Positions 1 to 29,000 of a DNA stretch of 64,000 nucleotides are shown here, piece after piece (positions within the stretch are counted from its first letter, which is position 1; the number at the start of each line of letters is the position of its first letter). This stretch comes from Eutreptiella sp. 'Long Island Sound 2002'. Taxonomy: Eukaryota; Euglenozoa; Euglenophyceae; Eutreptiales; Eutreptiaceae. Location of the stretch: contig OZ038384.1 of NCBI GenBank assembly GCA_964036045.1, positions 50,010,843 to 50,074,842 of the forward strand. Direction: 5' to 3'. The position numbers and the translations under genes were made by a program. The notes beneath the pieces are model-generated. The model was not told where the DNA came from, made no database searches, and saw nothing but the letters and a program-made list of their open reading frames with translations.

Positions 1-40
1 TGTCCAAACACATGGTCCTATTTGGCAGACATGCCTAAGT

Positions 41-58
41 TGGCCGAAATTTCGGCCA
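41..58. repeat. Palindrome copy
   Basis: The 18-bp core TGGCCGAAATTTCGGCCA is intact, but the outer C of the usual 20-mer is T here. It is the leftmost copy and lies beyond the 3' end of gene D, so another gene probably lies outside the window. Confidence 0.9.
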
Positions 59-272
59 GGTCCATCGAAACTCCGAATATGATCACTGAAATGGGTACCT
101 ATGACAGTAGACATGAGCAAGGAACACAGGAGCGGTGACATTTCAACAGGGTGTGCAGCATAATAGACTCAATTACAAGCAAATACTTGCCAACTGACAA
201 ATCGAATCAGACTTTTGCAGTGCCTATGGGGAAACACAATAATAAGAGGCTGAAGAGGCTGAGGACTCCATG

Positions 273-292
273 CTGGCCGAAATTTCGGCCAG
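273..292. repeat. Palindrome copy downstream of gene D
   Basis: Perfect 20-bp palindrome, 39 bp past the stop codon of the minus-strand gene at 332-1600. A transcript would form a 10-bp GC-capped hairpin with no loop or a very short one. Confidence 0.95.
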
Positions 293-331
293 ACTTCATA
301 TTGATACGCAATATAAGCAGTAGGACTGGCA

Positions 332-1600
332 TTAGCGCTTGCGCAGACCAGATGCACGGGGCTTCTTAGCACCCGTGTTAGCAGGAGGCTTGGCAGGGGT
401 TGCAAGACCAAGCTTGGCAGTGGCAGAGTTCTGTGACTGTGTGTTTCCACCCTGCGATGGTGAAAAATGATTCACAAAAGTATTCATACCTCTGCCAGTA
501 GGGGCCACAGTGCCTGAGGAGGAAGTTGGGGTGGCCCGAGTGCACTGCGTGCCACTGGGTGAGGGGGTACGGGGAGTTTTGGGTTTCTTCTTTGGAGTGT
601 GTGTCTCTGATGGCGACTCTGCCTCCCCATGTTGCTCCTCATGATCCTCATCTACATACCTAACCCCAGAAAAATCCACAGGAAAACCTGTCCCCAAGTC
701 GTGGTACACATCCTCCCACGACTTGGGGGGGCACGTGTCGGCGTTGGTGATAGCTGCTCTGATGGACTGAACAAACTCATCAGGCACAACAGTCTCCTCA
801 GCCAAAAGCGCACACACAAAATTACAGTCCTTGGAAAACATGGTAGACATCATGCTTGCAAAATACACAGACAGAGTCCCCATCAAAAACCACCTGCCTA
901 CCCGTTCTGGGACCGGAACCGGGCTCAAAAGAAATGAGAATATCTCAACAGGCATCACAGACGACATGGGTCCTTCAGTAAAAGCCACGTAACGGGGCAG
1001 CCTGTTATCAAAGGCAGTGGCAGAACAAATGGAAACCAGATGGGACGTAGAAGTGTACAGCGGGGTCTTGGTTGACAAATTGTAAATTGCAACATCACAC
1101 GGATACATATCCTCAGCCACAATGGCCTTCAAAGCAGCAACAGTGGCTTTCACATCAGCAGACTCACCCGCAATGAATACAGGCACACCGGACAAAAGAA
1201 GCTGCGCAACCAGGTTATGCAAACCAGCTGTATAGAGGCGGGGCACCTCAATGACACAAGCAGCAAAGGGCAGTGAACTAATGATACTGGGAACAGGGAC
1301 TCCACAACGCATTGCCATCAGTCCCACACGGCCTGACTCTGCAATGAGTTTGCATGTGCTTGACTCAACGAGGGACTCCCTAGCACACTCGATACTGACC
1401 AGACCAGTATCAGATTTTTCACAAACAGGCTTAGCAACAGGCTTCTGCAACAATCCCCGCAACCCCTCATATTTGGGTTCCTTCCAAAGAGGGGCCTTAA
1501 TTACTGCTGACCACGGTGGCCAGGGGTTTTCTTCCGTCCAGGTCCAACTGCCATACGCTAGCTTCAGGTGTGATGCAATGGCGCACTGCCTTTTGGCCAT
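332..1600 (-). CDS. Gene D: 422-aa protein of unknown function
   Basis: Open frame from an ATG (1598-1600) to a stop at 332, with no intron needed. I do not recognise the family. Residues 1-300 look globular, with hydrophobic segments such as SIISSLPFAACVIEV and VARYVAF-like strands. After about residue 315 the sequence becomes low-complexity: an acidic patch (DEDHEEQHGEAES), then Lys/Pro/Ser/Thr-rich sequence with PKKKPK, and a basic end KKPRASGLRKR. That tail resembles a nuclear localisation signal or nucleic-acid-binding tail. It is the last gene of the cluster, with palindromes on both sides (273 and 1682). A structural or DNA-binding role is possible but not shown. Confidence 0.75.
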   Translation of the reverse strand: MAKRQCAIASHLKLAYGSWTWTEENPWPPWSAVIKAPLWKEPKYEGLRGLLQKPVAKPVCEKSDTGLVSIECARESLVESSTCKLIAESGRVGLMAMRCGVPVPSIISSLPFAACVIEVPRLYTAGLHNLVAQLLLSGVPVFIAGESADVKATVAALKAIVAEDMYPCDVAIYNLSTKTPLYTSTSHLVSICSATAFDNRLPRYVAFTEGPMSSVMPVEIFSFLLSPVPVPERVGRWFLMGTLSVYFASMMSTMFSKDCNFVCALLAEETVVPDEFVQSIRAAITNADTCPPKSWEDVYHDLGTGFPVDFSGVRYVDEDHEEQHGEAESPSETHTPKKKPKTPRTPSPSGTQCTRATPTSSSGTVAPTGRGMNTFVNHFSPSQGGNTQSQNSATAKLGLATPAKPPANTGAKKPRASGLRKR

Positions 1601-1681
1601 CTCGATAGTACCAAGTGTAGCTGCAGACAGGTGGTGGCACAGGGTGGGCTCCTATTGTGCATTAATTGAACGACACACAAG

Positions 1682-1701
1682 CTGGCCGAAATTTCGGCCA
1701 G
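1682..1701. repeat. Palindrome copy between genes C and D
   Basis: Perfect 20-bp palindrome that begins 7 bp past the stop codon of gene C and lies 82 bp before the start codon of gene D. Confidence 0.95.
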
Positions 1702-1707
1702 GTCGGC

Positions 1708-2055
1708 CTATTTTTTCGAATACAAACTCCTGTTTGACCAAAACATACCTCTGGTGTTGTTCACAAGCCCATTGGTAACCGCCTCGGGATGAAGAATGTG
1801 GCAGGACCACATCCGGGCCTTTTTAACATCTTTTATGATTTTTTTTAGACCGGGTAGGGTACTTTTGGTCCCATCCATGTAACCTACGATGTCGCGAAGT
1901 CGGTCAGGCGTGATGCCTTCCGCTTCCTTGAACGTACCCAGTGCGGGATGTAACCCACGCTTCTCCATGGTTGCCATGGCGTCTACTGCAGCAAGACCCA
2001 CAAATTTCACCAAACGCCCAACGCCACCCCACCGTTTGGCAACAACACTCTGCAC
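1708..2055 (-). CDS. Gene C: small protein, about 115 aa, unknown
   Basis: Open minus-strand frame ending in a stop at 1708. The open stretch starts with a GTG codon at 2053-2055. The first in-frame ATG gives MATMEKRGLHPALGTFKEA, so either translation begins there (89 aa) or a short 5' exon is spliced on. An ATG at about 2063-2065 lies just after the palindrome but is out of frame. The text is plausible coding: a predicted helical run TPDRLRDIVGYMDGTKSTL and a basic stretch KKIIKDVKKARM. No family was recognised. Palindromes flank it at 1682 and 2080. Confidence 0.55.
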   Translation of the reverse strand: MQSVVAKRWGGVGRLVKFVGLAAVDAMATMEKRGLHPALGTFKEAEGITPDRLRDIVGYMDGTKSTLPGLKKIIKDVKKARMWSCHILHPEAVTNGLVNNTRGMFWSNRSLYSKK

Positions 2056-2079
2056 AGCAGAACATGTGGAACACAGAAG

Positions 2080-2099
2080 CTGGCCGCAATTTCGGCCAG
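2080..2099. repeat. Palindrome copy between genes B and C
   Basis: 20-bp copy with one mismatch to the consensus (GCCGCAAT in place of GCCGAAAT), 19 bp upstream of the gene B stop codon in plus-strand coordinates. Confidence 0.9.
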
Positions 2100-2118
2100 G
2101 TCGATCAACAAAACCGAA

Positions 2119-2919
2119 TTAATAAACGAAACACACCATAGTGCCTTCCTCGGCAGTAACACCACACTCTTCAAGCATAACAGGAATGTGATGGTACAGG
2201 GTGTACTCATTGGCATTCTCATCCTCAAGCCTATCCAGGAGTAGGGACATTCGCTCCGATGTGGTGGATGCTGAGCCAGCAGTGGTCTGGATTTGATGTA
2301 AGCCTGCAACCCGGCGCCTAGTCCGCAGGGGGCAGTCCTGTTTGACTTCATAACCACCAAATACCAGGGTCCAATCCGAAGTCTCCATATTTTTCATCTC
2401 AAATTCCTTCTTGTGTTTTTGGGCAGCAGTGTAAACATGCTGACCCTCCAACAGAACCCAGCGAGTGGCTGTGCAACAGGAATATTCGAAACAGCAAGGT
2501 CGAAAATTCAGACGCGAAAACGGTACTATCGAGAAGAATACCACAACACACATACGAGTGACTTTATAAAAAAGAAGATGCTGGATGTAATCCACAGGCG
2601 GGGCTGCCTTCAGATCGTCGTAGCGGCGTTGCACGCGATCATCCGAAATCCTACGGACGTGCCCAAATTTTCGGTCGTGGTCGATAATAATGTGATCCCA
2701 CCGAACCTTTATTTTCGTCGTTGACGTAACCCAGTCAGATAACTTGATGGAGGATGTTGAATTTTTCTTTGGTGCGGCCTTAGGCTTCTTTTGAAGTCCC
2801 TGTGTGCTCGCCTGGTCCTCTTGAGACTGGGATTGCACTTGAGATTGCCCATTGTCTGCTGCAGGCTCACCATCTGATGAAACAGCCATGTCCTGTGATA
2901 CCTCTCCAGGCTCAGTCAT
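2119..2919 (-). CDS. Gene B: ParB-like EGQH protein with one intron
   Basis: The frame runs from ATG at 2919 (an in-frame ATG at 2949 is an alternative) to a stop at 2119. Residues 87-173 of the raw frame include a cysteine-rich stretch unlike its surroundings. This stretch is bounded by GTATGTG (starting at 2555) and TTGCACAG (ending at 2469), an 87-nt phase-1 intron whose removal keeps the frame. Spliced, the protein is about 237 aa. After the junction comes VLLEGQHVYTAAQKH, which resembles the (D/E)GQHR motif of ParB/sulfiredoxin-fold proteins that bind or cut DNA or hydrolyse nucleotides. The N-terminus is Gln/Ser/Lys-rich and the C-terminus acidic. Three palindromes lie upstream of the start. 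The intron is well supported by its ends and phase; the ParB assignment rests on one motif. Confidence 0.65.
   Translation of the reverse strand: MTEPGEVSQDMAVSSDGEPAADNGQSQVQSQSQEDQASTQGLQKKPKAAPKKNSTSSIKLSDWVTSTTKIKVRWDHIIIDHDRKFGHVRRISDDRVQRRYDDLKAAPPVDYIQHLLFYKVTRMCVVVFFSIVPFSRLNFRPCCFEYSCCTATRWVLLEGQHVYTAAQKHKKEFEMKNMETSDWTLVFGGYEVKQDCPLRTRRRVAGLHQIQTTAGSASTTSERMSLLLDRLEDENANEYTLYHHIPVMLEECGVTAEEGTMVCFVY
2469..2555 (-). other. Spliceosomal intron in gene B (87 nt)
   Basis: On the minus strand it starts GTATGTGTGT and ends CTGTTGCACAG. It lies between the first and second positions of a codon. The retained translation would insert a Cys/Phe-rich segment just before the EGQH motif. Confidence 0.7.
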
Positions 2920-3038
2920 AAAATAAAGGGCTACAGGGCAACATTTCATGAAGGGGAGAGTTCCCAGATAGCAAATAACAAGCACAGATAAACCAAAAAA
3001 GGACCAAAACGGACTGCCTGACAGGAAAATCGGACAAC

Positions 3039-3197
3039 CTGGCCGAAATTTCGGCCAGTGCTGCTTTGCATGTCAAACCACTGTGTACAAATACCATTCT
3101 GAGAGGCTGGCCGAAATTTCGGCCAGAACCTTATGTCATTTGTGTTCTGGGGGTAGCCATATGACAAAACAACAAGTCTCGCCGAAATTTCGGCCAG
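3039..3197. repeat. Three-copy palindrome array upstream of gene B
   Basis: Copies at 3039-3058 (perfect), 3107-3126 (perfect) and 3178-3197 (one mismatch). Starts are 68 and 71 bp apart, leaving spacers of 48 and 51 bp. The array fills the gap between the end of gene A (3290) and the start of gene B (2919 or 2949). Confidence 0.9.
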
Positions 3198-3289
3198 AAA
3201 AACATGAAACAGCAAATAGACACACCAAAATCACTGGCAATGCGTGGCAGAACCCATACCACAGTGACAAACACAGCTGCAAACAGAAA

Positions 3290-5555
3290 TCAGTCCCAGT
3301 CCTGGGTATCCACACCGATGTGTTCCGCCTCATCTAGGGCTTCAAAGGAGGCAACGCTGTCTGCATCACAATCAATATCCCGGTCACTATCACAAGAGTC
3401 GACAGCAATGGAATCATCAGGGGCGGGGAGGGTACTGGGCGGGGGGGGGGGCTGGGGGGGGGGTACTGGGGGGCCTCTGGCTCGGGGCTTCGGGGGTGGC
3501 TTTGGGGGCAAGAAAATTCCACCAGGAGCAGCAGCAGGAGCAGCAGGCGGTGCACGGTTGGCAGCGCGGATAGAAGCATGTGCAGTACGCAACACCCCTT
3601 GCCGGGCAGCAGTGCGGGCAGGTGCATTTGTCTATAAAAAATCCTCAACACCCTCGGGAACCCTGGTACGCGCAACCAGATTTTGCATTGCATGCAACAG
3701 AACAACTTTTAAACAGTCTGTGGTGATTCCTGTCCTAGACATGGTATCGGGGAAGGTCAGATCCTCAACTGCATCCACTCTTCTCACCTCAACTTTATAG
3801 TCCGGAACGGGAACACAAATGGGCAGGCTCTGTGTATGGGCTGTCAAGATGAATTGTTTAAGATTGGCAGAGAACATTGCCACGGATCTCTCAGTCAGCA
3901 CACCACGCAAAACTTTCTCTCCCGGTTGGACAGGGGGAAGTGTCAGAAATAAATCAAACGACTGTTGGACACTGGTACAGGCAGTGTTGCGGCGACAGTG
4001 GGCTGAGAACCGACTCAGAAGTGCCTCACCCAGCTCCTCAGAGTGGATACACCCTAGGGAGGCGGAACGCCACTGACTCCAAAACAAAAGAGCAAGAGCA
4101 GTGGTTTTCACATACTCCGTGGCTAACTGCTCCTCGGGCTTTAGGATGTTCAGCATGAGCAGTAGGGACATCTCAAGTGCCTGCTTAGCTACAATCCCGG
4201 AACCTGCCCCCCGCCCCTCCCAGTTGCACTCACGAACCAAAGTCCCAATGCTGAAAGCAGCTGGACAGTATGTGTACAGCAAAGCCCTAAAGGCTAATAA
4301 CATACGCAAACCCTTGCGCTGAATGGGTGTCAAGTCCCGCTGGCTATTGAGCAGGGAAGTGACGCGCTCATCTGGTCTGCCTCTATTGGACGATGTGGCT
4401 AGCATGAGTTCAAGCAACGTCTTCTCCATATGGATGACCTTGACCTTGCGAGAAAGGATACACCCAACCTGAAGGCTGTTCCCCTGCTCCAAAAACTTAA
4501 TGAACGGCAGGAACGCCCTGTAGATCAATTCAACGCAATACTTATAGCTATGCCATACTCCGTACACCAAAGGAAAACCCAACAGTAATTGTGGTACATT
4601 CCACGGAACATAAGCAGCACCATAACACAGCTTAAGTAGGGCAAAGTGTATTTGCATGTCCACAAGCAGCGGAACACAGTGTCTGGTGCGGTGTTCCACA
4701 CATGACAAATCGACCAAGAGTTGCAAAAGCCCTTTGTGTGTGCCGGAGCGGAGCTCAGACAGGAAAAAGGGTCTGGAGTTGAGGGGACGAACATTTTTTC
4801 TGGCAATATCCAAAGGAGCACGAACCCAAACTCTCTGAATACCTTGGTTGGCAACATCAATACGATCAAACAATGCTCTATGTGAGCGAAAGATGTCATC
4901 TGCAACCTTTGGTACCCTGGCCTCAATTTCGGCCAGCTCCGGCAGACCCTGGTATGCAGGTAGGGCAGTAGTGTGCAAAACAGCAACAGTTGTACAGTTT
5001 AGGGTTAAGTCGCGTGAATGGGGATCAGCTCCCGACCTGTAACGCCTCAGGTTATCAAACCATATACAAACTTGCCTACGGTGCATGGTGTTCCACAAGT
5101 TGTGTGATGCTAGTCCAGCACGATGGTGAATGGACTCCTGCTTAGTGTTACACTGACCAAGCACTCCTACCTTACGGCGTTGGCGGCAGGACATAATACC
5201 CCAGTTGTAACCAGACCCACAGTTAGAGTATGGGAGGGCCATACGACGCAGCAGGCAGTATAGGGCATGGAACTGTGACAAAAATGCCATGTACCATCGT
5301 GGGGGCTTCTTCTCAGTGGCGGCAGCCTTCAATTGTGTCAGCGAGTGCCGGCTCCTGCGATTCTTCCGCAACATGAGGCAGAATTGCAAAAGCTTTTGCA
5401 GAGTCCCACCACGTAATGCATTTCGCAACAGCCCTTTGGCTGTAGTAGCAAAAGCACCAGTAACTGCAGCATGTACAACATTAACAATAATAGCAGAAGA
5501 AATTACTTCTGAGACAAGAAAACAGTTATGTAGGAGTGTATGGTGTAATACTCAT
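3290..5555 (-). CDS. Gene A: large protein (about 740 codons), in-frame TAG
   Basis: A long open frame covers 5551-3635, but the first in-frame ATG candidates are far inside. A better start is ATG at 5555-5553, followed after one base by a 43-nt intron (5551-5509, GTATTACACC to TTGTCTCAG). This gives MKVISSAIIVNVVHAAV in frame, 626 codons up to a TAG at 3632-3634. The same frame then stays open for 113 codons to 3290: a proline-rich segment (PPKPPPKPRARGPPVPPPQ) and an acidic tail ending DTQDWD. The TAG follows a T6 run (TTTTTTATAG), which could be a splice acceptor; readthrough or a nonsense mutation are alternatives. Landmarks are WFDNLRRYRSG near residue 180 and YGVWHSYKYCVELIYRAFLP further on. 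They recall uncharacterised transposon-borne proteins of algae and fungi, but I cannot name the family. Confidence 0.7.
4917..4936. repeat. Degenerate palindrome inside gene A coding sequence
   Basis: CTGGCCTCAATTTCGGCCAG has two changes from the consensus, at the centre-left. Read on the minus strand it encodes part of ELAEIEARVPK without breaking the frame. The intergenic copy at 5856 carries the same CTGGCCTCA variant. Confidence 0.7.
5509..5551 (-). other. Candidate 43-nt intron after the gene A start codon
   Basis: On the minus strand it reads GTATTACACC through a branch-point-like ACATAAC to the pyrimidine-rich acceptor TTTTCTTGTCTCAG. Splicing joins ATG-A to AA-GTA-ATT and opens the long frame of gene A. 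Confidence 0.5.
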
Positions 5556-5574
5556 GAACAACGACAATTGCAAG

Positions 5575-5875
5575 CTGGCCGAAATTTCGGCCAGGTGTGT
5601 TCGAAGGGGAAATAATTGCTTAAATGTTCAAAAATAGGAAAAGCTGGCCGAAACTTCGGCCAGACCGCCCAAAAACTAGAATATAAGTGCTTGAATAGTG
5701 AACAGACCAAAAAGCATGCCGAAATTTCGGCCAGCCCTAAGAAAAATAAAAATATTTATGCCTGTTCACTAGGAAACCAAAAAGCTGGCCGAAATTTCGG
5801 CCAGAAGGGTCAAAAACTGCATATACACATAGTTGTTTGCAATGTTACCCAAAAGCTGGCCTCATTTTCGGCCAG
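5575..5875. repeat. Five-copy palindrome array upstream of gene A
   Basis: Copies start at 5575, 5644, 5715, 5785 and 5856, giving steps of 69, 71, 70 and 71 bp. The first and fourth are perfect; the others have one to three changes, and the last is extended to AAGCTGGCCTCATTTTCGGCCAGCTT. Spacers of 49-51 bp are A-rich, partly alike, and several end in CCAAAAAG or CCCAAAAG, so the array is a decayed 70-bp tandem repeat with a selected or rebuilt palindrome. Confidence 0.9.
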
Positions 5876-5905
5876 CTTTAGAAAAACGTCAAATGCAACA
5901 CACTA

Positions 5906-6992
5906 GAAGAAGTGGATACACAAGGCTAACACATCAACACGTATTTCAACGGGTGTCACACAGCTCTGCCAACAACTTTGGTCACATATGTCAAATAGCA
6001 TACTCAAAGTAGAAATGTAGAATATTGTCCCATCGCGCGTATACGGGGTCCTAGAGGGTGGGCAACTTGTGACGCCTAAGTGCCAAGTGACCTTCAATGT
6101 GACCTATGGGGGGGAGGGGGGGGGGTTAACTAGGCTAAAAGGGGGGTGGTGGTGGGGGGGGGGGGGGGGGCGGGGAACCTGGCGCTCCATGAGTTGGGTC
6201 AAGCATCGCGACCCTGCTAACCATGGTAGCCGGGGCAGCTTCTCTTTGAGGAATGGCGGCGCATTAACATATATCCTTCTAGAGGTGTTGTAGCGAAGCA
6301 TTCTTTTGACGTTGTAGCGAGTGCTGGCGGCGCTCGCTACAGCGTCGCTAGAACGCCGGTAGAACGAACTTTTTCTCCAAACCGAATTCAGGTGAAAACA
6401 GTGAAATTGTGAACAACAAACCTTGGGCCTCCGAGTACGGATAGGGGGGTCCGGGTTTGCAACCCTCAAAAAAACTACCAATGACCCCCACGGGGGAGGG
6501 TAACCCCCCTTTTTTCCATTCTAGCTTTGCAGGGCCATCTAGGCTAGAAACGAATTGGGTCTTCTAGCGTGTACGAACGCCTCTAGGGTCCCCTCAGCAG
6601 CGGTGACAACGACCTCGGGGCGTGGGGTTGGGTGCGGCACCGGAAAATCGGGCATGCGGCCGGTGCGCCCAGTAGCAAGCCGGCCAGCTTACTTCATCTC
6701 CCCTTGCAGCGTGTGCCGCAGCTTCTTGTGTTCGGTGTTGTCCTTTAGGGCATTGTGGGCAGTTTGAACCTACATGTTGCCGCACTCCGGACGGGGCGCG
6801 CAAAGGGCACACCTGCTCCGTCCAGACGATCCCCAGGGTCTCGGTGCGCTGGTATCCCGAATCCCAAATCCGCGTCATCCACGTCTCCTCGTCCGTATCC
6901 AAACTGTGCTTTTTGTCCCTGCGCATCAGTTCATTGAAGAGTGTGTGTGGTCCTCTCTGCGCCTTTCTTGAATGAGTGTCTCCACTTGCTCG
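5906..6992. other. No gene recognised; G-rich runs
   Basis: Holds long G runs at about 6,108-6,170 and GC-rich imperfect inverted repeats near 6,300-6,360 (GCGAGTGCTGGCGGCGCTCGC). The small open frames on both strands have no recognisable content. Confidence 0.6.
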
Positions 6993-7371: not shown

Positions 7372-7479
7372 GGGTCACTCTTATGGGGGCCGTGGCTGGC
7401 ACCAAACCTTTTGCATCAATGTTTCCAAATGCTTGCGTTGCCCCCTGTGCTTTTGGCTTATCCGCGGCATGTCCCTTCT

Positions 7480-9799: not shown

Positions 9800-10660
9800 G
9801 TGTTCAAAAAACGGCAAGCAACTGCTTCCTCAACAATTGCGGAAGAGGTAGAACTTCGAACATCTCGCTGAGGTCCGGGGTCGCGCCTTGGGGGCTTGCG
9901 CAAGGCGCAGCGACCCTAATCGGGGCCTCTGCGGCGGGGGGGGCGGACTGAGAGATTCGTCGCAGCAACGAACCAAACTGCGGCAACAAGCGTGGAGCAG
10001 ACAAGCAGGCTGGGGTGCGGCATGGCCGCTTTGGGGATGAAGCAAGAAGCGGTACTGAAGAACGGGAGTGGCTGTTGAACTTGGTCAGTGGCACCTGGTC
10101 ACTAGCACGGGAGGGGGGGGGGGTCAACGAAGCAGAAGGTAGGGGGGGGCTTGGGGATATGGGGGGGTTTGGGGGCAGCATAGATGGTTGCAAGCAGCAA
10201 TGTTGCGTGCTCCTCGTGCCTGTTGAGGAAATGTGAATTGTCAATCCGCATTCCCTCCTGCCACACAAGCAGGGAGTTTTTCTTGAGGTTTTGAACCGCA
10301 AACCGGAACATGGCTCGGCGGTGCAACACCCCGTCTACACAATGTTGAACCCCGCCCCCGTGGTTGTCCCAGATCAGCTGTAGTGTCTTGGCACTATACG
10401 GCGTGTGGACAATGTGTTTGGGGGGGTGGGGGGTCTTTTGGTACATACTGGGGGTTGTGGCGGGGGATGGTGGTGGCACGGTGGTGGACAGAAGTGCCTC
10501 TTCCAAGGCTTCCAAGGCCATGTGCTATGGAGTCCAAGAAGGTTCGGCTCTAGGAGGAGGACTTGCAGTCGGTGGAGGGGGGTGGTGGTGCAGGGATGAT
10601 GCAGGGGGAGAGTGGCGAGGGGGGACATCGGGGGCTCAGGCGAGGCAAATTCAGAGCAGA
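9800..10660 (-). pseudogene. Decayed transposon-type gene, copy 1 of 2
   Basis: Near 10,420-10,250 the minus strand encodes PYSAKTLQLIWDNHGGG, HRRAMFRFAVQNLKKN and LLVWQEGMRIDN. The stretch at 42,980-42,810 encodes a similar [17 protein letters not shown] and [16 protein letters not shown], so the two are diverged copies of one gene. Both have Pro-rich sequence upstream. G/C homopolymer runs break the frames. No function is known. Confidence 0.55.
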
Positions 10661-13600
10661 CCTCTAGCAATGATTAATTGAGGGGAATTTGTCCTTCAAT
10701 GAATCATCGGAGCCCTTGAACATGGGACTAGAGCCACCTGCTATGATTCACTAAAGAGTCCACTCCCTTCAATAAATCATTATGTCCCTTGTAAATGGGA
10801 GTAGACCCCCTACGATGGTTCATTGGCGGGTCTACTACAGTCAAGGAATCCTTCTAGCCCTTGAAAATAGGGGTAGACTACCTGCAATGATGCATTGAAG
10901 CGTGTAATCCCTTCAATGTATGATTGCAGCCCTTGTAAATGGGAGTAGACCCCTACCAATCATTAATTGGGGGGTATACTCCCTTCAATGAACCATCACA
11001 GCCCTTATAAATGGGAGTAGATAGGAAGAGATGATTCATTCAAAGTTCTACTCCCTTCAATGAACCATCGCAGCCCTTGTAAATGAGAGTAGGCACTTTG
11101 CGATGATTCATTGAGGGGTCTACTCCCTTTAATGAATCACTGTATGCATTGTAAATGGGAGTAGGAACCCTGCCTGATTCATGGAGGGGTCTTCTTCCTT
11201 CAAAGAATCAATGCAGCCCTTGTAAATGGGAGTAGACCCTTGGGATGATTAAGTGGAGCATCGGATCCCTTCAATGAATCATTGCAGTCGTTGTACATGG
11301 GAGCACACCCCCTGCAATGATTCATGGGGGGGGGGGGGTTGTTCCTACAATAAGTCGTCGCAGACCTTGTAAATGGGAGTGGCCCCCCTGCCATCATTCA
11401 TGGAGAGTTTTACTCCCTTCAAAGAAGCGTCGCAGCCCTTGTTCATGGGACTAGACCCCCTGCGATGATTCATTCAAGTGTGTAAACCCTTGAATGAACC
11501 ATCGCAGCCCTAGTAAATGGGAGTAGACTCGCTTCGATGATGTGTTGGAGGGTCTACTGCTTGCAACGAATCAAAGCAGCCCATGTAAATGGGAGTACAA
11601 CCCCTGCAATGATTCATTGAGGGGTGTACCCCCTTCAATGAATAATCGCAGCCCTTGTACATGGGACTAGAACATTTGGGACAATTCATTGAGCCTAAGG
11701 GGTCCACTGGCTTCGATGATTCGTAGCAACGGTTGCAAATTGAAGTAGACCCGTTGCAATCATAGATTCAAAGTTTCACTCCCTTCAATAAATCGTTGCA
11801 GTTGTTGTTCATGGGAGCACACGTGCTGTGATGATTCATTAAGCGTCTAATCCCTTCCAACAATCATCACATTCCTTGTAATTGGAAGTAGACCCCTAGC
11901 AATCATTCATTGAAAATACTTCTTCCTTCAGTCAATCATTGCTGCCCTTGCGAATGGGAGTAGACCCCTGCGATGATTCATTGAAGAGTGCACTCCCTTT
12001 AATGAATCACCACATCCCTTGTAAATGGGAGTAGACACCACGCGATGGTTCATTAAGGGGTCTACTACGGCCGTCTAATCATCGCAGCCCTTGTAAATGG
12101 GAGTAGACTACCTACCATGATGCATTGAGGGGTCTAACCCCTTCAATGAATCATCGTATACATTGTATATGGGAGAAGACACACCACGATGGTTCATGGA
12201 GGGGTCTTCTTCTTTCGATATATCATCGCGACCCATGTAAATGGGAGTACACCCCCTGTGCTGATTGATTGAAGGGTCTAATCCCTTCAATCTATCATCA
12301 CAGCCCTTGTAAATGAGAGTAGGCACCCTGCGATGATTCATTGGGGGGTCTACTCACTCCAATGAATCACGGCACCCTGTGCAAATGGGAGTAAACCCCC
12401 TGCGAAGATTCTTTGAGGGGCGTACTCCCATCAATGAATCGTCGCAACCCTTGTAAATGGCAGTGCAGCGCCTACGGTGATTCATGGAGGGGTCTTTTAC
12501 TTGCAGCGCTTGTAAATTGGAGCGGATCCCCGGCGATGAATCATTGAGCAGTCTACCCCCTCCAAAGAGTCATTGCAGCCCTTGTAAATCGGAGTAGACA
12601 GCTTGCGATTGTTCATGGACACGTCTTTACTTTTTTAATGAATCATCGCAGCGCTTGTAAATGGGAGCAGACCCCTTGCAATGATTCATTGAAGGGTCTA
12701 GTCCCTTCAACGAATCACGGCAGCCCTTGTAAATGGGAGTAAAGGCCTTGAGATGATTCTTTGAAGGGCCCACGGCCTTGAATGAATCTTCAAACCTCTT
12801 GTAAATGTAAGTAGATGCACTACGATGATTTACTGAAGGGTCTACTCCCTTCAATGAAGAGCGCAGTTGTTGTAAATGGTACTAGACCCCTTACGACGAG
12901 CCATCCAAGAGTCTACCCCGTTCCATGAATGATCAGACCCCTTGCGAATGGGAGTAGACCCCGTGCAACCACTCAATGAAGGGTTTAACCCCTTCAGCGA
13001 ATCGCCGCGGACCTTGTTAATGAGAGGCGACCCCCGGCAACGATTCATTGAAGCGTCTACTCCCTTCAATGAATCACCAGGGCGCTTGTAAATGAGAGTA
13101 GACCCCCTGCGATGATTCATTGAGGGGTCTACTCCCTTCGACGAACCGTTGTAGCCCTTGTAAATGGGAGTAGACCCTGTGCGATGTTTCGTTGAAGGGT
13201 CCAGCCCCTTCAAAGAATCATCAAACCCGTTGTAAATGGGAGGAGACACCATGCAAATATTCATCGAGGGATCTTCTTCCTTTAATGAATCATCATTGCC
13301 CTTGTAAATGTGCGTAGAACCCTTGCTATGATTCGTTGAAGTGTCTAATCCCTTCAATGAATCACTGCAGCCCTTGTAAATGGGAGTAAACCCCCTGAGA
13401 TGATTCATTGAACGGGACACTCCCTTGAATGAATCTTCAGCCCTCTTGGAAATGAAACTAAACCCCCGGCGATGATTTAGTGAAGGGTCTAATCCCTTAT
13501 TTGATTCATCGTAGTTGTTGCAAATGGGACTAGACCCCGTGCGATGATTCATCAAAGGGTCGACCCCCTACGATGATTCATTGAAAAATATCCCCCATTC

Positions 13601-16600
13601 AAAGAATCATCAGACCCCTTGTAAACGGGAGTAGACGCCTTGCAAAGATTCCTTGAAGGGTCCCATGCCTTCAATGAAACACGGAAGCCCTTGAAAATGG
13701 GAGTAAACTCCCTCAGACGAGACATTGAAGGGCCACACCCTGTGGTTAATTGATGGAGGGGTCATCTTACTTCAATCAATCATTGTAGACCTTGTAAATG
13801 GGACTAGACTGCCTACAATGAGTAGTCCAAGGGTCTACTCCCTTCAATGAATCATCGCAGCCCTTGCAAATGGGAGTAGACCCCTTGCAACAATTCATTG
13901 AAGGGTTTAATCCCCCCCAATGGATCACGGCAGCCTTTGTAAATGGGAGTAAACCCCTTGAGATGATGCAGTGAAGGGCCAACTGCCTTGAATGAATCAT
14001 GCCAGCCCTTGTAAATTGGAGTAGACCCCATGGGATGTGTGATTGAAGGGCCCGCTACCTTGAATGAGTCATCACACCTCCTGTAAATAAGAGTAGACCG
14101 CCTCCAATGATTTATTGAGGGGTCGATTCCCTTCAATGAAAATGAATGATTGCAGCCCTTGTAAATGGGTGTGGACCCCTGTAATCATTCATTGTAGGGT
14201 CTTCTCCCTTCAATGAATCACCAAACCCTTGTTGATGGGAGTACACCCCCTGGGAAGATGTATTGAACGTCCACTCCCTTCAATGATTCGTCGCAGCCCT
14301 TGTAAATGGGAGTAGACCGCGAGCAATGATACATGGAGGGGTCTTCTTCATTCAATGAATGATTGCACCCTTTGCAAATGGGAGTAGACTGCGTACAATG
14401 ATTTATCGAACGATCCAATCCCTTCAATGAATCACTGCAGCCCTTGTAAATGGGAGTAAACAACCTGCGATGATTCATTGAAGGGTCCACTCCCTTGAAT
14501 GAATCATCGCACTCCTTGTAAATGGGAGTAGATGCCCTGCGATAATTACTTAAGCAGTGTACCCCCTTCAATGAATCATCGAAACTCTTGCAAATGGAAG
14601 CAGACCCCGTGCAATTATTGATGGAAGGGTGCAATAAATCATCGCAGCCCGCCTCGGATGCTTTATGGAGGGGTCTTCTTCCATCAATGAATCTTCTCAT
14701 CCCTTGCAAATGGGAGCACAGCCCCTGCAACGATTTATTGAACGGTCTACTCCCTTCAATGAATCACCGCAGCCCTCATAAATGAGAGTAGATCCCCTGC
14801 GATGATTCATTGACGGGTCTACCCCCCTCAATTCATCATTGTCGCCCTTTTAAATGGGGGAAGACCCCCTACGATGATTCTTTGAGTGGTCTACTACTTT
14901 CATTTAATCACCGCAACCCTCGTAAATGGGACTACACACCGTGATGTGTTTCAGTGAAGGGTCTACTCCCTTGAATGAATTGTTGCGGCCATTGTAAATG
15001 GGAGTAGACCTCCTCCGATGATTCATTGAGGGGTCTACTCCATTCAATGAATCACCGCATCCCTTGTAAATGGGAGTAGACCCCCTATGACGAATCATTG
15101 AGGGGTCTACTCCCTTCGATGATTCACCGCAGCCCTTGTTAATATGTGTTGAGCCCCTACGAAGATTTTTTTGAGGGTTCACTCCCTTCAATGAATAATC
15201 GCAAGCCTTGTAAATGGGATTAGACCCCCTTCCATGATTCATGCACGGGTCTTCTTCCGTTAATGAATCATCGCCGCCCTTGTGAATGGGAGCACACCCC
15301 CTGAGATGATTCATTGAAGGGCCCAATCATTTGAATGAATCTTTATTGCCCTTGTAAATGGGACTAGACCCCCTCCAATTGAATTGCCTACTCCCTTCAA
15401 TGAATCATTGCAGCTGTTGTAAATGGCAGTACACCCCCTGCGATCATTCACGGAGCGGTCTACTCCCTTCAATGAATCACCACAGGGGTTGTAAATGGTA
15501 GTAGACCACGTGCGATGATTCGTTGAAGGGTTTACCCCCTTCAATGAATCACGGCAGCCCTTGTAAATGGAAGTAGACCCCTGTGATGATTCATCGAAGG
15601 GTCTAGTCTCTTCAACGAGTCACCGCAGCGGTTGTAAACGGTGGTGGACCACCTCCGTTGATTCATTGAAGGGTCTACCCCGTCAACGAATCATTGCAGC
15701 CCTTGTAAATGAGAGTAGACCCCCTACGATGATTCATTGAGGGGTCTACTCCCTTCAATGAATCATCGTAGCCGTTGTTAATGGGGGTAGACCCCCTGGA
15801 AGCTTTATTGAACGGTCGGCTCCCTTCAATGAATCCTTGGGGCCCTTGTAAATGGGAGTAGACCCCTTGCAATGCGTCATTGAAGGGTGTACTCTCATCA
15901 ATGAATCACAGCAGCCGTTGTAAATGGGAGTAGACCGCTTGCGATGATTCATTGAAAGTTCCACTCCCTTCAATGAATTATCACAGCACTTGTAAATGAG
16001 AGTAGATACCCTGCAATGATTGATTGAGGAGTCTACCCCCTTCAATGAAATACCGCATCCCTTGTAAATGGGAGTAGACACCTAGCGATGATTAATGGAG
16101 GGGTCTTCTGCCTTCCGTGAATCCACGCTGCCCTTGTAAATGGGAGTAGACCCCCTGCGATCATTAATTGGAGGGGCAAATGCGTTCAATGAATCATCAC
16201 AGCCCTTGCATAGACACCCTGCAATGATTGATTCACGGGTCTACTCCGTTCAATAAATCATTGCATCCCTTGTAAAAGGGAGTACACCCCTTGCGATGAG
16301 CCACCGAGGGGTCTTCCTCCTTCGATTAAAGAGTACAGCCCTTGTAAATGGGAGTAGACCCCTACGATGATTAATTGGAGGGTCTAATCCGTTCAATGAG
16401 TCATCACAGCCCTTGTAAATGGGAGTAGACCGCGTGCAATGATACATGGAGGGGTCTTCTACCTTCAATGAATCGTGGCAGCCTTTGCAAAAGGGATGAG
16501 AGCGCCTTCAACGATCAATTGAAGGATCCAATCCGTTCAATGAAACACTGTAACCCTTGTAAATGGTAGTAAACGCCCTGAGATGACTAATTGAAGGGTC

Positions 16601-17905
16601 CACTCCCTTTAATGAATATTGTACCCCTTGTAAATGGGAGTAGACACTCTGCGATGATTATTGAAGGTGGTACTCCCTTCAATAAATCATCGCAGCTCTT
16701 GTAAATTGGAGCACACCCCCTGCATTGATTTATTGAAAGGTCTACTCCCTTCAATGAATCACCCCTTCCAAATGGGAGTAGACCCCCCGCAATGATTCTT
16801 TCAAGGACCTAGTCCCATAACCACTTCATGTGCACAAGTTTGGATGCAATGGAGCTGGTTAGGAGTCTGGGGCAAGAGGGTTGCGCCAGACACGGGATAT
16901 GGCTTGGCCACCTTGGCCAAGCAACCGAAATCCGAATCAGTTACAAAGTAGGACCACATTAAGCAGATGAAGCGTTTGAGGATCTAGGTTCTGAGGTGGG
17001 AGACCACTAGGCTTAGCCTCTAAGAAAAAAATTCAATGAATCATTGCAGCCCTTGTTAATGGGAGTAGACCGCCTGCGCTGATTTATTGAAGGGTGTACT
17101 CCCTTCAATGAATCATCGCAGCCCTTGTCAATGGGAGGAGACCCCCTGCGGTAATTCATGGAGGGGTGTTCTTCCGGCAATGAATTGTCGCAGGCCTTGC
17201 AAATGGGAGTACGCGTCTTGCAACGATTCATTGAAGGGCCTAGTCCCCTCAATGAATCATCGCAGCCCTTGTAAATGCATAGACTTCTTGAGATGACTCA
17301 TCGAAAGGTCCACGCCCTTCAATGAACCACCGCAGCCCTTGTGAAAGGAATTAGACTACATGCGATGATGAATTGAGGGGTTTGCTCCCTTCAATGACAC
17401 ACCGCACCCCTTGTTAATATGAGTAGACCCGCTGCCAAGGTTTGTTGAAGGGCCCACTCCGTTAAATAAATCCTTGCAGCCGTTGTAAATGGGATAAGAC
17501 CCCGTGCGATCATTCATTGAGGGGGCTACTCCCTTCGATGAATCACCGCGGCCCTTGTAAATGGGAGTAGGGCCCGTGAGATGACTCAGTGAAGGGTGCA
17601 CTCCCTTCAATGAATGGCCGCTAAAAGGAGTGGACCCCCTACGAAGATTTGTTGAAGGGTCCACTCCCTTCAATGAATCATCGCAACCCTTGTAAAAGGG
17701 ATAAGACCTTGTGCGGGGATTCATTGAGGGGTCTACTCCCTTTAATCACGGCAGCCCTTGTAAATGGGAGTAGACCCCCTGCGACAATTCATTGAAGGGT
17801 GTACCCCCTGCAATGAATCATATTAGCCCCTGGAAATCGGAGTGGACCACCTGCACTGATTCATTGAAGAGTCTACTCCCTTCCATGAATCACAGCAGCC
17901 CCAAA
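10655..17905. repeat. 72-bp satellite array, about 100 units
   Basis: Consensus features in order: TTCAATGAATCATCGCAG, CCCTTGTAAATGG, GAGTAGACCCC, CTGCGATGATTCATTGA, GGGGTCTACTCCC. The first and fourth blocks are reverse complements, as are the third and fifth, so every unit consists of two overlapping inverted repeats. Because 72 is divisible by 3, frames stay open over many units and encode 24-residue repeats such as NHRRGSTPIYKGCDDSLKG; I read these as by-products. Units differ by about 10-25%. A last partial unit lies at 18,222-18,285. Confidence 0.95.
16810..17030. other. 220-bp unrelated insert in the 72-bp satellite
   Basis: The satellite stops near 16,810 and resumes at about 17,031. 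Between them is unique sequence including GGCTTGGCCACCTTGGCCAAGC, an imperfect dyad. No coding content is seen. Confidence 0.75.
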
Positions 17906-26000: not shown

Positions 26001-29000
26001 GACACCACTGAACCAATATGTGCGTTTGTCAATGCACACTTTCTGCACATAATCAATGAATGCACGGAAGGCACAATATCGTGCACCACGCGCGGCCCAT
26101 GCCGCCACAAACACCATCAAAGACCACGCAAAGGATAGTGTTTGGAGGCACTTGCCGGGTTCGGCCCGAATGGTTTTATCCAACAAAATCAGTAGTGGCC
26201 CGCAAGTAGGCAAATTGGCGACATCAGCCTTTCCGTCTAGGGGTCCCCAATGCTTCAAAGCGGGGGACAAAATCAGAAGTGCCCCACAAGTGGCCAGATT
26301 GGCTACACCATCGCCCACATTCAGGTCACTCAAAACCGAATCATGAACAAATTCACGCGCTGCATTGCCTTAAGTTGGTCAAAATGGGTGCACAACAAGG
26401 TTATCATAGCCATGTTGCTCCGAAAAAAAGAAGCCGGGTGACCATACCCCGGGATATGGCTGTTTTTGGTCTAAAACCCGTGTTCTAATGTCTAATTAGA
26501 AGAGATAGAACACCAACTTGGGATGGCACCGGTGCCGAGGGATCATGTTTGGGGGGCGGGGTCACGAGGGGGGGGTGGAATTTTGACCTCCAAGGGGTGT
26601 CCACCCCTTCAGGGCTTGTTTGAAGGCCTGCAAAGCTGCAAGAGCTTGGGCCTTACCAGGGGTACCAGAGGGGAGGCCCTGAAGGGTGGTCTCAGTGCGC
26701 TTTGCAATGCCATTTAGAATGCGGCATGCTGCATGTTGGTAGTCCCCCGGCCGTCTATCAGGGGTCACACATCTCCAAAATGCCCCCCATCTTGAGGTGG
26801 ACTCCACCCCCATTTGCTCAACAATACCATTGGGGTCTTTGCACAACCAACACTTAGACCCAGCCCCCCCCCCCCCCCCCCCATTGGTTGCATCCCCTTC
26901 CCATCCCCCGTCAAAATAACAATGCAAGCCAAAAATTGGTTTTGAAAGAGGACAACATCCTCCTCCACATCCCTCACCTCTTGGTTGAGGTTGGCGGAGA
27001 TGTCCACGCTTCTCAGAAAAGCCTGTTCATCCCCGCCATCCATGCAAAACCATGAGGCGCGTAGCTTCACCTTCGAAGCATACTTTGCCCCCCCCCCCCC
27101 CCCCCCATATATATTGACCCATACATCCGCACGGGTAGAGGATGCCTTCCACAAGGAAGTCGCATCAACTCAAATGACAACAATGGCAACGCCACTAGGC
27201 TAGGGGGGGTTTCCCAATAACTTGGGCCATAGATATCGCATTATGTACAATTGACTGCAAAGGCACATGGGCAGCTGCCCTATTGCGGCCTGTGGTAGAC
27301 TTTACAATGGTGGCTTGGGGAAACTAGGGCATGACCCCTTGCCGAACGGGCCTTAGGTCCCGTGGGGTACAACGGCGTGGCATTCGCAAAAGGGCCCGCT
27401 GGGAAAGATGCATGCTGCATGCCATGCGTAGCATGCTCTGGGCCTCATGTTCTTGAGCCGCGAATGCAAGATGGCCACCAAGTGGGCCAGAGAGGGCTGT
27501 GCACGCCGCACCACTTAAACAAACTTCTACTTTGGTGTTGGTGCCACACATAATGTTGGGATCCCCCAATAGAACTCGAACCAGCCTCTGAACAGCCTTC
27601 AACCGCTGCCGCAGGGCCTTGGGACATTGCAAATCGGTGTACCGCCGCAGGTTAGCTGAATTCAGAGCCCTCGGGGCCTCATTAACAACAGTATCCATGA
27701 AGAATAAGAGGTCCTGGGTGAGAAATGAGGGAGGGTGTTGAAGCAAGGGCCCAAAAAACACACGCGATAACCCACGCGATAACCCCGCGAAAACTAGGTT
27801 AGTGTGCGATAACCCCCGCGATAACCCACGCGATAACCCAGTTAGAGCGCGATAACGCAACGCGATAACTAGTTAGAGCACCCAGTTAGAGCGCGATAAC
27901 TACCGCGACAACTAGTTAGAGCTGAGGTTAGTGCGCACTAAGTGGAGGGGTTGGAGCGCATTGGGCACCCTAAAACCCAGGTGCACAAGCTGTTGCTGCC
28001 ACGTAGGTGTGCAGTGCAGCAACCCCCCTGCACTGTAAAAAATCACGCTCCATCGCTCGCCCTCCCATGCCAATGGAGCGTGTAGTGCCCGGGTGTTGAA
28101 CAACACCGGGGCTTGGGGCGTGGCCTTGCATGCCCAACCCCCAACGCCCTACCCTTGCTGCGGGGTGTGGTCATAGCTCGAAATTTAGGCCATGTCAAGA
28201 ATGGTGCAGCCCCACCCAACCCCCCCACCACACTCTTCTTCGCGGTCTCAAGCACACGATCCGGGACCCTTTTGAGGACCGGCAGATCGTGGAGCTTGTG
28301 GCGGTTGTGCTTGTGGTGGTTGCGGCCCCCATAGTTGCCATACGCAGTGCGGCGGGTCCCTGAATCTTGGGGCCTGCCCACAATGGGGGGGTTCTCATTG
28401 AAAATGGCTGCCTTCTCTCAGAGAGGCACCCTATCAAGATCATCCAAAATACTATCGAGTTGCACATTATTCAAAAAATTGTGCTCGAGCAAGTGGTTCA
28501 CCACCAACCTGTCCCCGGTGGTGACCACAAGATCATTTGGATCCCTATTAAAGGCACCCATGGGCTCAGCCGCAACCACTTCCTCGGCCTCCCCAAGAAG
28601 GGGGGCTGTTGCCCCAAAAGTAAAAAGAATCATCCCCTGCCCCGAAACAATGTTGGGATTGGTGACCCCATACCACTCACGCTACCACTCCCTTGTGGGG
28701 CAAAGGGAGTGCATGGGGAGCTTGGTTTCGGCGTCGTCAGTGCAGACCCGGCGGATGTTGTGGGTGAGGGGTTGGGGGAACCAACCATCCAACTTCCCCT
28801 TCCCCTTACCACGTCGGATCCTTACCTTCTGAACACTAATCATGAGGGGTTGGTGGGGCTTGTCCTTCCCCCTCCCAACCCCCATCTCCTCCACCTCCTC
28901 CACTTCCTCCTCCACTTCCTCGTCTTCCTCGTGACCCACAAAGAGGGTCGTCTTCGTCCCGGCACCCTTCTCCGCATGGGCGGTGACGGACTCCACCACG

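Follow-up and report, generated by a model that had tools for sequence, protein, structure and literature searches.

Results

The locus is a DNA transposon

The first 6 kb of the window, by which we mean the whole 64,000-nucleotide stretch analysed here, raises the question of why a 20-letter palindrome recurs between closely packed open reading frames. An initial annotation had described these frames as four genes, A to D, of a multigene element. We found that the locus is a DNA transposon of 6,536 bp, spanning window positions -455 to 6080 (Table 1), whose end structure and fixed length of target duplication fit class II (cut-and-paste type) elements. The termini read CTTAGGC. A perfect 5-bp target duplication and 21-bp terminal inverted repeats were present in all five complete copies examined, and the repeat sequence was identical at nine of their ten ends, the left end of copy L017 being two bases off. 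Copies L017 (C1:1.21 Mb, 95.5%) and L022 (C1:29.9 Mb, 95.7%) aligned over about 6.54 kb and had unrelated flanks. The host genome is eukaryotic (2.28 Gb), and copies of the element are numerous and dispersed in it, with D protein clusters of 267, 79, 54 and 33 members and A protein clusters of 175, 134, 66 and 39. D, C, B and A were found together in other copies of the window family, and their order is retained in the sister-family locus L051, which together with the inverted repeats and target duplications bears out the multigene mobile element that had been proposed.

Table 1. Features of the element in window coordinates; negative positions lie left of the window.
Feature	Position	Strand	Remarks
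Element, part inside window	1..6080	-	456 more bases left of window
Left terminal inverted repeat CTTAGGCGTCACAAGTTGCCC	-455 to -435		outside window; pairs with right repeat
Right terminal inverted repeat GGGCAACTTGTGACGCCTAAG	6060..6080	.	21 bp
Target site duplication TGCCA	6081..6085	.	5 bp; second copy abuts left end of element
Gene C-B-A, spliced model	332..2919	-	761 aa; exons 2919-2556, 2468-2137, 2049-1749, 1620-332
Intron 1 (predicted)	2469..2555	-	87 bp, phase 1; palindrome absent
Intron 2 (predicted)	2050..2136	-	87 bp, phase 0; holds palindrome 2080; donor similar in sister-family loci
Intron 3 (predicted)	1621..1748	-	128 bp, phase 1; holds palindrome 1682; splice sites retained in L017 and L022
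Gene D, candidate transposase	3290..5551	-	in-frame TAG at 3632-3634 in this copy
Single palindrome	40..59	.	downstream of C-B-A
Single palindrome	273..292	.	downstream of C-B-A
Single palindrome	1682..1701	.	within intron 3
Single palindrome	2080..2099	.	within intron 2
Ladder of 3 palindromes (3039, 3107, 3178)	3039..3197	.	D / C-B-A spacer
Degenerate palindrome	4917..4936	.	inside D reading frame
Ladder of 5 palindromes (5575, 5644, 5715, 5785, 5856)	5575..5875	.	upstream of D

The open reading frames are best read as two genes

Judged from their sequence, the four described genes are best read as two, namely D and a spliced gene C-B-A. A, B and C are better modelled as exons of one gene than as separate genes: the spliced model contains no internal stop, and C and B share one frame in a sister family. 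The spliceosomal introns suspected in the initial annotation gained support in C-B-A, because they have GT..AG borders, the position of intron 1 is common to three families (lengths 87, 87 and 84 bp), and several sister copies (e.g. L042 and L027) have in-frame stops inside this intron. Under this single-gene model, palindromes 1682 and 2080 would fall in introns.

In the window copy, the D frame 3632-5551 closes with TAG; relatives carry glutamine at this codon (CAG in L019), and the frame then runs to 3290. An intron within D was considered and rejected, the interruption being a stop codon. D has 26 homologues, and the residues invariant in eight aligned sequences include WxxN, PLDxxR, D291, GxWHxxK and E498/E502. 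With regard to an RNase-H fold, D has conserved D, H and E residues, and its fold model (pLDDT 45) was too poor for use. Pfam gave no match for the window D frame or P0001. Among the D relatives, searched up to E 10, no hAT model was hit, and the sole match, of Tht1 to P0025 (E 0.079), was taken as noise. The best PDB match of the D profile had an E value no better than 1.4.

For C-B-A, no Pfam match came near the cut-off; matches of B to HTH_47 (E 0.21) and of two of nine C members to a poliovirus 3A-like model (E 0.18) were likewise taken as noise. Foldseek with the predicted structure of C, which was too poor for use, gave a best E of 2.2. C carries a GGQH-type motif. Its seven PDB matches consisted of an unrelated protein as the best (E 0.65) and six near-identical, and thus not independent, sulfiredoxins (E 1-2.1), and one of nine C members weakly matched phrog_1033 (ParB-like, E 0.2); a ParB/sulfiredoxin-type match was absent with a second C alignment and in Pfam. 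As no Pfam family matches the proteins of the window element at a level close to its cut-off, the element may also represent an undescribed transposase lineage.

Palindromes concentrate in the non-coding parts of the element

Thirteen window sites lie within three mismatches of the palindrome CTGGCCGAAATTTCGGCCAG, all of them at positions 40-5875 (0.00 in 100 shuffles), and a 14th is located at -31, just left of the window. The earlier statement that the remainder of the 64 kb holds no copy proved correct, the next-best matches having at least 5 mismatches. Genome-wide, the 18-mer of the palindrome occurred 7,450 times versus 0 for a reversed control. The even spread across unrelated host loci that would have spoken against the multigene element was not observed, as all 50 listed places of these 7,450 fall into five clusters. 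Single exact palindromes in 11 stretches of prokaryote species genomes are probably chance matches.

The palindrome had been described as standing at every gene boundary. Its sites are real, and every spacer between open frames holds at least one; there are, however, more sites than boundaries, and one lies inside the D frame. Thirteen of the 14 sites fall outside coding sequence, namely in two introns, in the spacer between D and C and at either end, whereas only 30% of the element is non-coding, a placement whose binomial P of about 2e-6 treats the sites as independent, which the ladder members are not. Ladder steps measure 68-71 bp, and part of one ladder (5639-5805) is picked up as a tandem repeat with a period of 71. 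Among three full-length copies of the window family, the palindromes showed no extra conservation over their flanks (divergence 0.0436 vs 0.0428); they diverge like the flanks, and selection on individual copies is thus not seen.

A mostly non-coding derivative lacks A and B sequence and matches D over only 26 residues. It retains both ends, the target duplication and 31 palindromes (up to 4 mismatches), and a 451-base piece of it occurs at 40 places with 98-100% identity. Because this derivative is largely without coding sequence yet keeps its ends and 31 sites, a role of the palindromes in cis appears plausible.

Sister families carry their own motifs

The same genome houses six further sampled families whose D genes are related, and each has its own inverted-repeat motif; a window-like end was seen in three of them. 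To the window family motif given above correspond CTGGGCGAAATTTCGCCCAG in the P0020 family, with a variable right arm, CTGGGCTCTGCAGAGCCCAG in the P0024 family and, each from one 1-kb piece, GTGCGCGAGGCCTCGCGCAC in family 672, C[AT]ATCGAAATTTCGAT[AT]G in 713, GTCTGGnnCCAGAC in 718 and GCTGGnnCCAGC in 768. In the 718 and 768 motifs the two-base centre is asymmetric and the dyad scores lie at 5-7 of 9, to be read against shuffled controls that reached at least 6 in about 23% and at least 7 in about 4% of cases. In all seven upstream pieces, the commonest 8-mer exceeded the maximum of 60 shuffles. Spacing is regular as well: of the steps shorter than 100 bp, 55 of 58 measure 69-70 bp in the P0020 family and 19 of 19 measure 70 bp in the P0024 family. 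A perfect palindrome is not the rule in the P0020 family, where position 15 is G at 59, T at 55 and C at 38 of 159 sites and the most frequent upstream form ends TTCCAG. The family-specific spelling suggests that each family may use its motif as a private protein docking site.

Centre and arms of the motif are kept to different degrees

The four bases at the centre are retained at 148 of 159 sites in the P0020 family, 47 of 48 in the P0024 family and 59 of 62 in the window family, whereas all eight outer pairs are kept at 19, 31 and 47 of these sites, respectively. In the P0020 family, 140 of the 159 sites are therefore incompletely paired over the eight hairpin positions. Most of this loss falls on pair 6, which is kept in 36%, and 90 sites have at most a single missing pair. 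Since the centre is kept in this family while pairs are lost, the pattern moderately favours DNA sites, which a symmetric protein would read, over RNA hairpins.

Discussion

We consider it rather probable that the element is a two-gene DNA transposon with an array of palindromic cis-acting sites that are putatively bound by C-B-A. According to this working model, D would be the transposase and act at the element ends, and all or part of the C-B-A protein would bind the palindromic DNA as a symmetric dimer. With many sites occupied along its length, the element could be compacted and its two ends drawn together for transposition; occupancy could also, or instead, protect the non-coding DNA of the element from silencing by the host. 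A family-private site would reduce cross-mobilisation among co-resident families. Several observations weigh against this explanation: one palindrome is placed within a coding frame, intron 2 is palindrome-free in the P0020-family loci printed, the palindromes show no excess conservation, P0020-family sites often depart from a perfect palindrome, neither D nor C-B-A matches a Pfam family near its cut-off, and four of the motifs come from one 1-kb piece each, two of them (718 and 768) with the asymmetric centres and dyad scores given above. Co-resident families whose sampled ends are alike and whose internal palindromes are unlike constitute a natural experiment on the avoidance of cross-talk and on the joint change of a DNA-binding protein and its site; their comparison makes a protein-site code testable.

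Binding by a host factor (a transcription factor, insulator, origin or silencer protein) instead of an element protein is unlikely in our view. Non-coding placement would also suit a regulatory site, and binding by an element protein is itself inferred; the seven sampled families with their different motifs would, however, require either one host factor each or a single permissive factor, and the listed palindromes sit in element-like clusters. We regard it as improbable that the palindromes are neutral hitch-hikers, short sequences that slippage and conversion multiplied inside the elements and that coding DNA does not tolerate. Their divergence at the level of the flanks and the period-71 repeat would agree with such an origin, but the motif differs in each sampled family within a similar architecture, and steps of about 70 bp recur in three families despite differing palindromes. 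Similarly doubtful is a more specific proposal, an undescribed superfamily in which a ParB-parS-like pair, consisting of the C domain as a putative ParB/sulfiredoxin-like dimer and a private palindrome, would have changed jointly in at least seven families; the dimer would load on the element and serve as a mark, as a means of pairing the two ends or as a shield against silencing. In bacterial ParB-parS systems, parS is a palindromic site, and the likeness consists in the palindromic sites and the GGQH-type motif of C, whose similarity to sulfiredoxin or to a ParB-like phage family is weak and in no case significant.

The initial annotation had likened the palindromes to giant-virus hairpins, and mimivirus-type hairpin polyadenylation, as far as the available text of PMC4402537 describes it, shares with the element the position of palindromes between open frames. 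That RNA hairpins set transcript 3' ends here is very unlikely. The palindrome does fold well as RNA (z -3.0), every spacer between open frames holds one or more, outer pairing is intact at most window-family and P0024 sites as counted above, and, with losses in the P0020 family concentrated at pair 6, many of its sites could still fold into a hairpin. Against this, palindromes form ladders of three and five, five copies lie upstream of the first gene and two in introns, and pairing is often imperfect in the P0020 family at sites that keep the centre; the giant-virus reading is thus unsupported. The annotation had also left the choice between a transposon and an endogenised virus-like element, of which the former stands through the element ends. 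We give the latter almost no credence: all that points to it is that the element has several open frames and is spliced, whereas the element is short, has transposon ends and resembles no viral Pfam family near the cut-off. In the viral contigs searched, a collection that may omit records near this genome, none of seven pattern matches to the D profile was confirmed and the palindrome was not found.

The preferred reading, a transposon with protein-bound palindromes, can be compared with known systems. The literature searched, mainly at title and abstract level and with most subscription journals outside it, yielded no description of such palindromes in a eukaryotic transposon. Zisupton/KDZ and Plavaka elements are likewise eukaryotic DNA transposons able to carry non-transposase genes; according to the available part of PMC12730594, target duplications measure 8 bp in Zisupton and 2-3 bp in Plavaka, so that the 5-bp duplication of the window element, which also lacks a Pfam match, departs from both. 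The same source gives 5 bp for hAT5, as in the window element, but similarity to hAT transposases was not found in the D relatives with Pfam. As summarised in the accessible text of PMC2613891, En/Spm (CACTA) elements have conserved short ends and family-specific repeats that are bound by an element DNA-binding protein (TnpA) and act as cis-determinants of transposition. Short conserved ends and family-specific repeated motifs are common to both. En/Spm, however, has CACTA ends and a 3-bp duplication, in contrast to CTTAGGC and 5 bp in the window element, whose inverted-repeat motifs also occur in introns and spacers and whose D has no Pfam match. By description rather than by sequence, the co-resident related families with family-specific non-coding motifs also resemble the VANDAL elements of Arabidopsis, in which differing short non-coding tandem-repeat motifs are each recognised by the family's own VANC; in the portions available of PMC5735166 and PMC10398659, these motifs are 8-9 bases long and not dyad-symmetric, compared with the 20-letter palindrome of the window element.

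Boundaries and copies of the element

Comparison with copies on C1 of the 2.28-Gb assembly, in which the window starts at G000:C7:50010843, revealed sharp boundaries for the window element. Both the size of this assembly and the presence of introns mark it as eukaryotic. A perfect 5-bp target duplication was found in all five complete copies examined (the window's own copy, L017 and L022, L021 with its internal deletion, and the derivative L018), and a single one of their ten ends deviates, namely the left end of L017, in which two bases are changed. The own copy is 95.5-95.7% identical to L017 or L022. A sixth copy of the family, made up of L019 and L020 (G000:C1:24397500-24414000), is interrupted by other sequence and carries an internal deletion.

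Coordinates of the element and of other features in the window (negative positions lie left of the window start)
Feature	Position	Size or strand	Description
Window element	-455 to 6080	6,536 bp	21-bp inverted repeats CTTAGGCGTCACAAGTTGCCC
Tandem arrays	10654-17901 and 49010-60794		large; 72-bp and 85-bp units
Palindrome clusters	27757-27920 and 29346-29472		palindromic CGCGATAAC / GTTATCGCGCGATAAC
Open frame between these clusters	28682-29293	minus
Retroelement-like frames	33935-37586	minus	resemble remnants of a Ty3/gypsy reverse transcriptase and integrase, judged by eye
TTCATAA / TTATGAA repeats	38571-38858, 39803-39900, 40697-40731		on both sides of the next open frame
Open frame	39889-40749	minus

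Two probable genes, one of them with a spliced model

Searches for relatives of the candidate transposase gene D gave 26 hits, with 90%-identity clusters of 267, 79, 54 and 33 members, and those for A gave 40 (clusters of 175, 134, 66 and 39 members). Database fusion proteins that combine parts of D and A, of B and A, or of C, B and A are consistent with the same gene order elsewhere. An 87-bp intron lies in C, a second (GT..AG) links C to B and a third links B to A, and the predicted spliced C-B-A frame comprises 761 stop-free residues. The position, phase and splice strings of the C intron were matched (87 bp) in 6 of 14 loci tried from the sister family P0020, the other eight giving no match to the exact splice strings or frame, and recur (84 bp) in the sole P0024-family locus tried. 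Because C and B form one continuous frame in the P0024 family, their junction is supported; for the putative B-A junction the support consists of the splice consensus, the frame and its occurrence in L017 and L022.

Palindromes of the window element

The 20-base palindrome occurs in 13 copies (up to 3 mismatches), all within 40-5875 and none in the rest of the window, with 0 copies across 100 shuffles and runner-up matches having at least 5 mismatches; a 14th copy lies at -31. Ladders with 68-71 bp steps occupy the D-C spacer and the region upstream of D, and single copies stand at other places. Under the spliced C-B-A model, introns hold two palindromes and 13 of the 14 are non-coding, against a non-coding share of 30% for the element (P about 2e-6, treating sites as independent). 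The palindrome's 18-mer is found at 7,450 places in the genome and the reversed control at none; five clusters take in all 50 of the matches listed. Among three copies compared, palindromes were no better conserved than their flanks, the pattern to be expected if copies decay once they have inserted. The case for selection therefore comes from the family comparison alone.

Sister families and their motifs

In the P0020 family, whose D is 41% identical to the window D, the loci contain relatives of C, B and A (in the order D-C-B-A at L051), and the 5' end is CTTAGGCCACGCTAACTACCC or a near copy in 14 of the 15 loci listed. Its motif, CTGGGCGAAATTTCGCCCAG, has a variable right arm: downstream of D the symmetric form leads (11 of 49 sites), and upstream the commonest forms end in TTCCAG or CCCCAG, the three commonest making up 36 of 110 sites. 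The P0024 family (D 33% identical) has the order extra open frame, D, C-B, and its motif, CTGGGCTCTGCAGAGCCCAG, has 1,439 exact genome copies. A search with P0025, a D relative, revealed more D families, some present as several stop-free copies with identical scores. Among the matches listed, the 768-aa family has four such copies (G000:C6:45103838, 54520480, 95332787; C10:26628375), which suggests recent activity.

From 1-kb pieces upstream of D at five loci, four new motifs emerged, in families with open frames of 672, 713, 718 and 768 aa, and the window family's motif turned up in the remaining piece. The 672-family motif occurs 3,608 times in the genome. Candidate ends resembling the window end are CTTAGACGGCCCAAGTTGTCC (718) and CTTAGGCCACGCAAACTGCCC (768), from one piece per family; no ends were found for families P0024, 672 and 713. 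In seven of seven pieces, trimmed by hand to non-coding DNA, the commonest 8-mer exceeded the maximum of 60 shuffles. Perfect dyads (9/9) were present in five families. The 718 and 768 dyads score 5-7 of 9, and shuffled controls reach at least 6 in about 23% and at least 7 in about 4%; when scored as inverted repeats with a spacer (at most 2 mismatches, 500 shuffles), the 718 motif has 4 sites (shuffle mean 0.01, maximum 1) and the 768 motif 5 (mean 0.19, maximum 4).

DNA sites, RNA hairpins and the candidate binder

Palindromes of this kind could also act as RNA hairpins that set transcript 3' ends. A hairpin depends on its stem, the central four bases being dispensable, yet these bases are kept more often than all eight outer pairs in the window family (59 against 47 of 62 sites), the P0024 family (47 against 31 of 48) and the P0020 family (148 against 19 of 159), counts that are non-independent because each site was picked for its likeness to a chosen motif (with 4 or 5 mismatches allowed) and many sites share a common origin. 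Intron and upstream placement likewise speaks against hairpins. Pair loss in the P0020 family is concentrated at pair 6 (kept in 36%), with one pair lost at 71 sites, two at 56 and three or four at 13, and many sites could still fold into a hairpin. Because this loss falls mostly at one pair, we rated the hairpin explanation upwards, to a level at which it is still very unlikely. Pairing counts and placement favour double-stranded DNA sites for a putative symmetric protein.

As a binder, C is a ParB/sulfiredoxin-like candidate, which we treat as a lead, not an assignment. It contains an invariant G-Q pair inside a GGQH-type motif. A first C profile gave 7 hits in PDB, the best to an unrelated protein (E 0.65) and the other six, on the GGQH-type motif, to near-identical and thus mutually non-independent sulfiredoxins (E 1 to 2.1). 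One of nine C members matched a ParB-like phage family (E 0.2). A second C alignment returned unrelated proteins alone, a Pfam search of C gave no ParB model, and the predicted fold of C was too poor for use.

The element is read, with some confidence, as a DNA transposon with two genes and palindromic cis-acting arrays, the C-B-A product being the putative binder; its closest analogues are Spm/TnpA (PMC2613891) and VANDAL/VANC (PMC5735166, PMC10398659). That it belongs to an undescribed transposon superfamily, each family having a ParB-parS-like pair of element-encoded C domain and private palindrome, seems improbable. Both readings are rated slightly lower in view of the concentration of P0020 pairing loss at a single pair and the mutual dependence of the sulfiredoxin hits.

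A mostly non-coding derivative

In L018 (3.9 kb) both ends and a target duplication are present, and the palindrome is counted 31 times when up to 4 mismatches are allowed. Its matches to the genes comprise 128 residues of C (64%) and 26 residues of D (E 0.004), with none to A or B. Since identity between its pieces and the window element is 73-81%, L018 is assigned to a divergent subfamily. A 451-base piece has at least 40 full-length places, its own included, at 98-100% identity (40 of 1,175 candidates scored). Because this identity, compared for that piece alone, exceeds the 95.5-95.7% between the own copy and L017 or L022, a recent spread of the palindrome-rich derivative, presumably through mobilisation in trans, seems likely.

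Elsewhere in the window, the palindrome clusters and open frame within 27757-29472 possibly belong to another element with a non-coding motif of its own.
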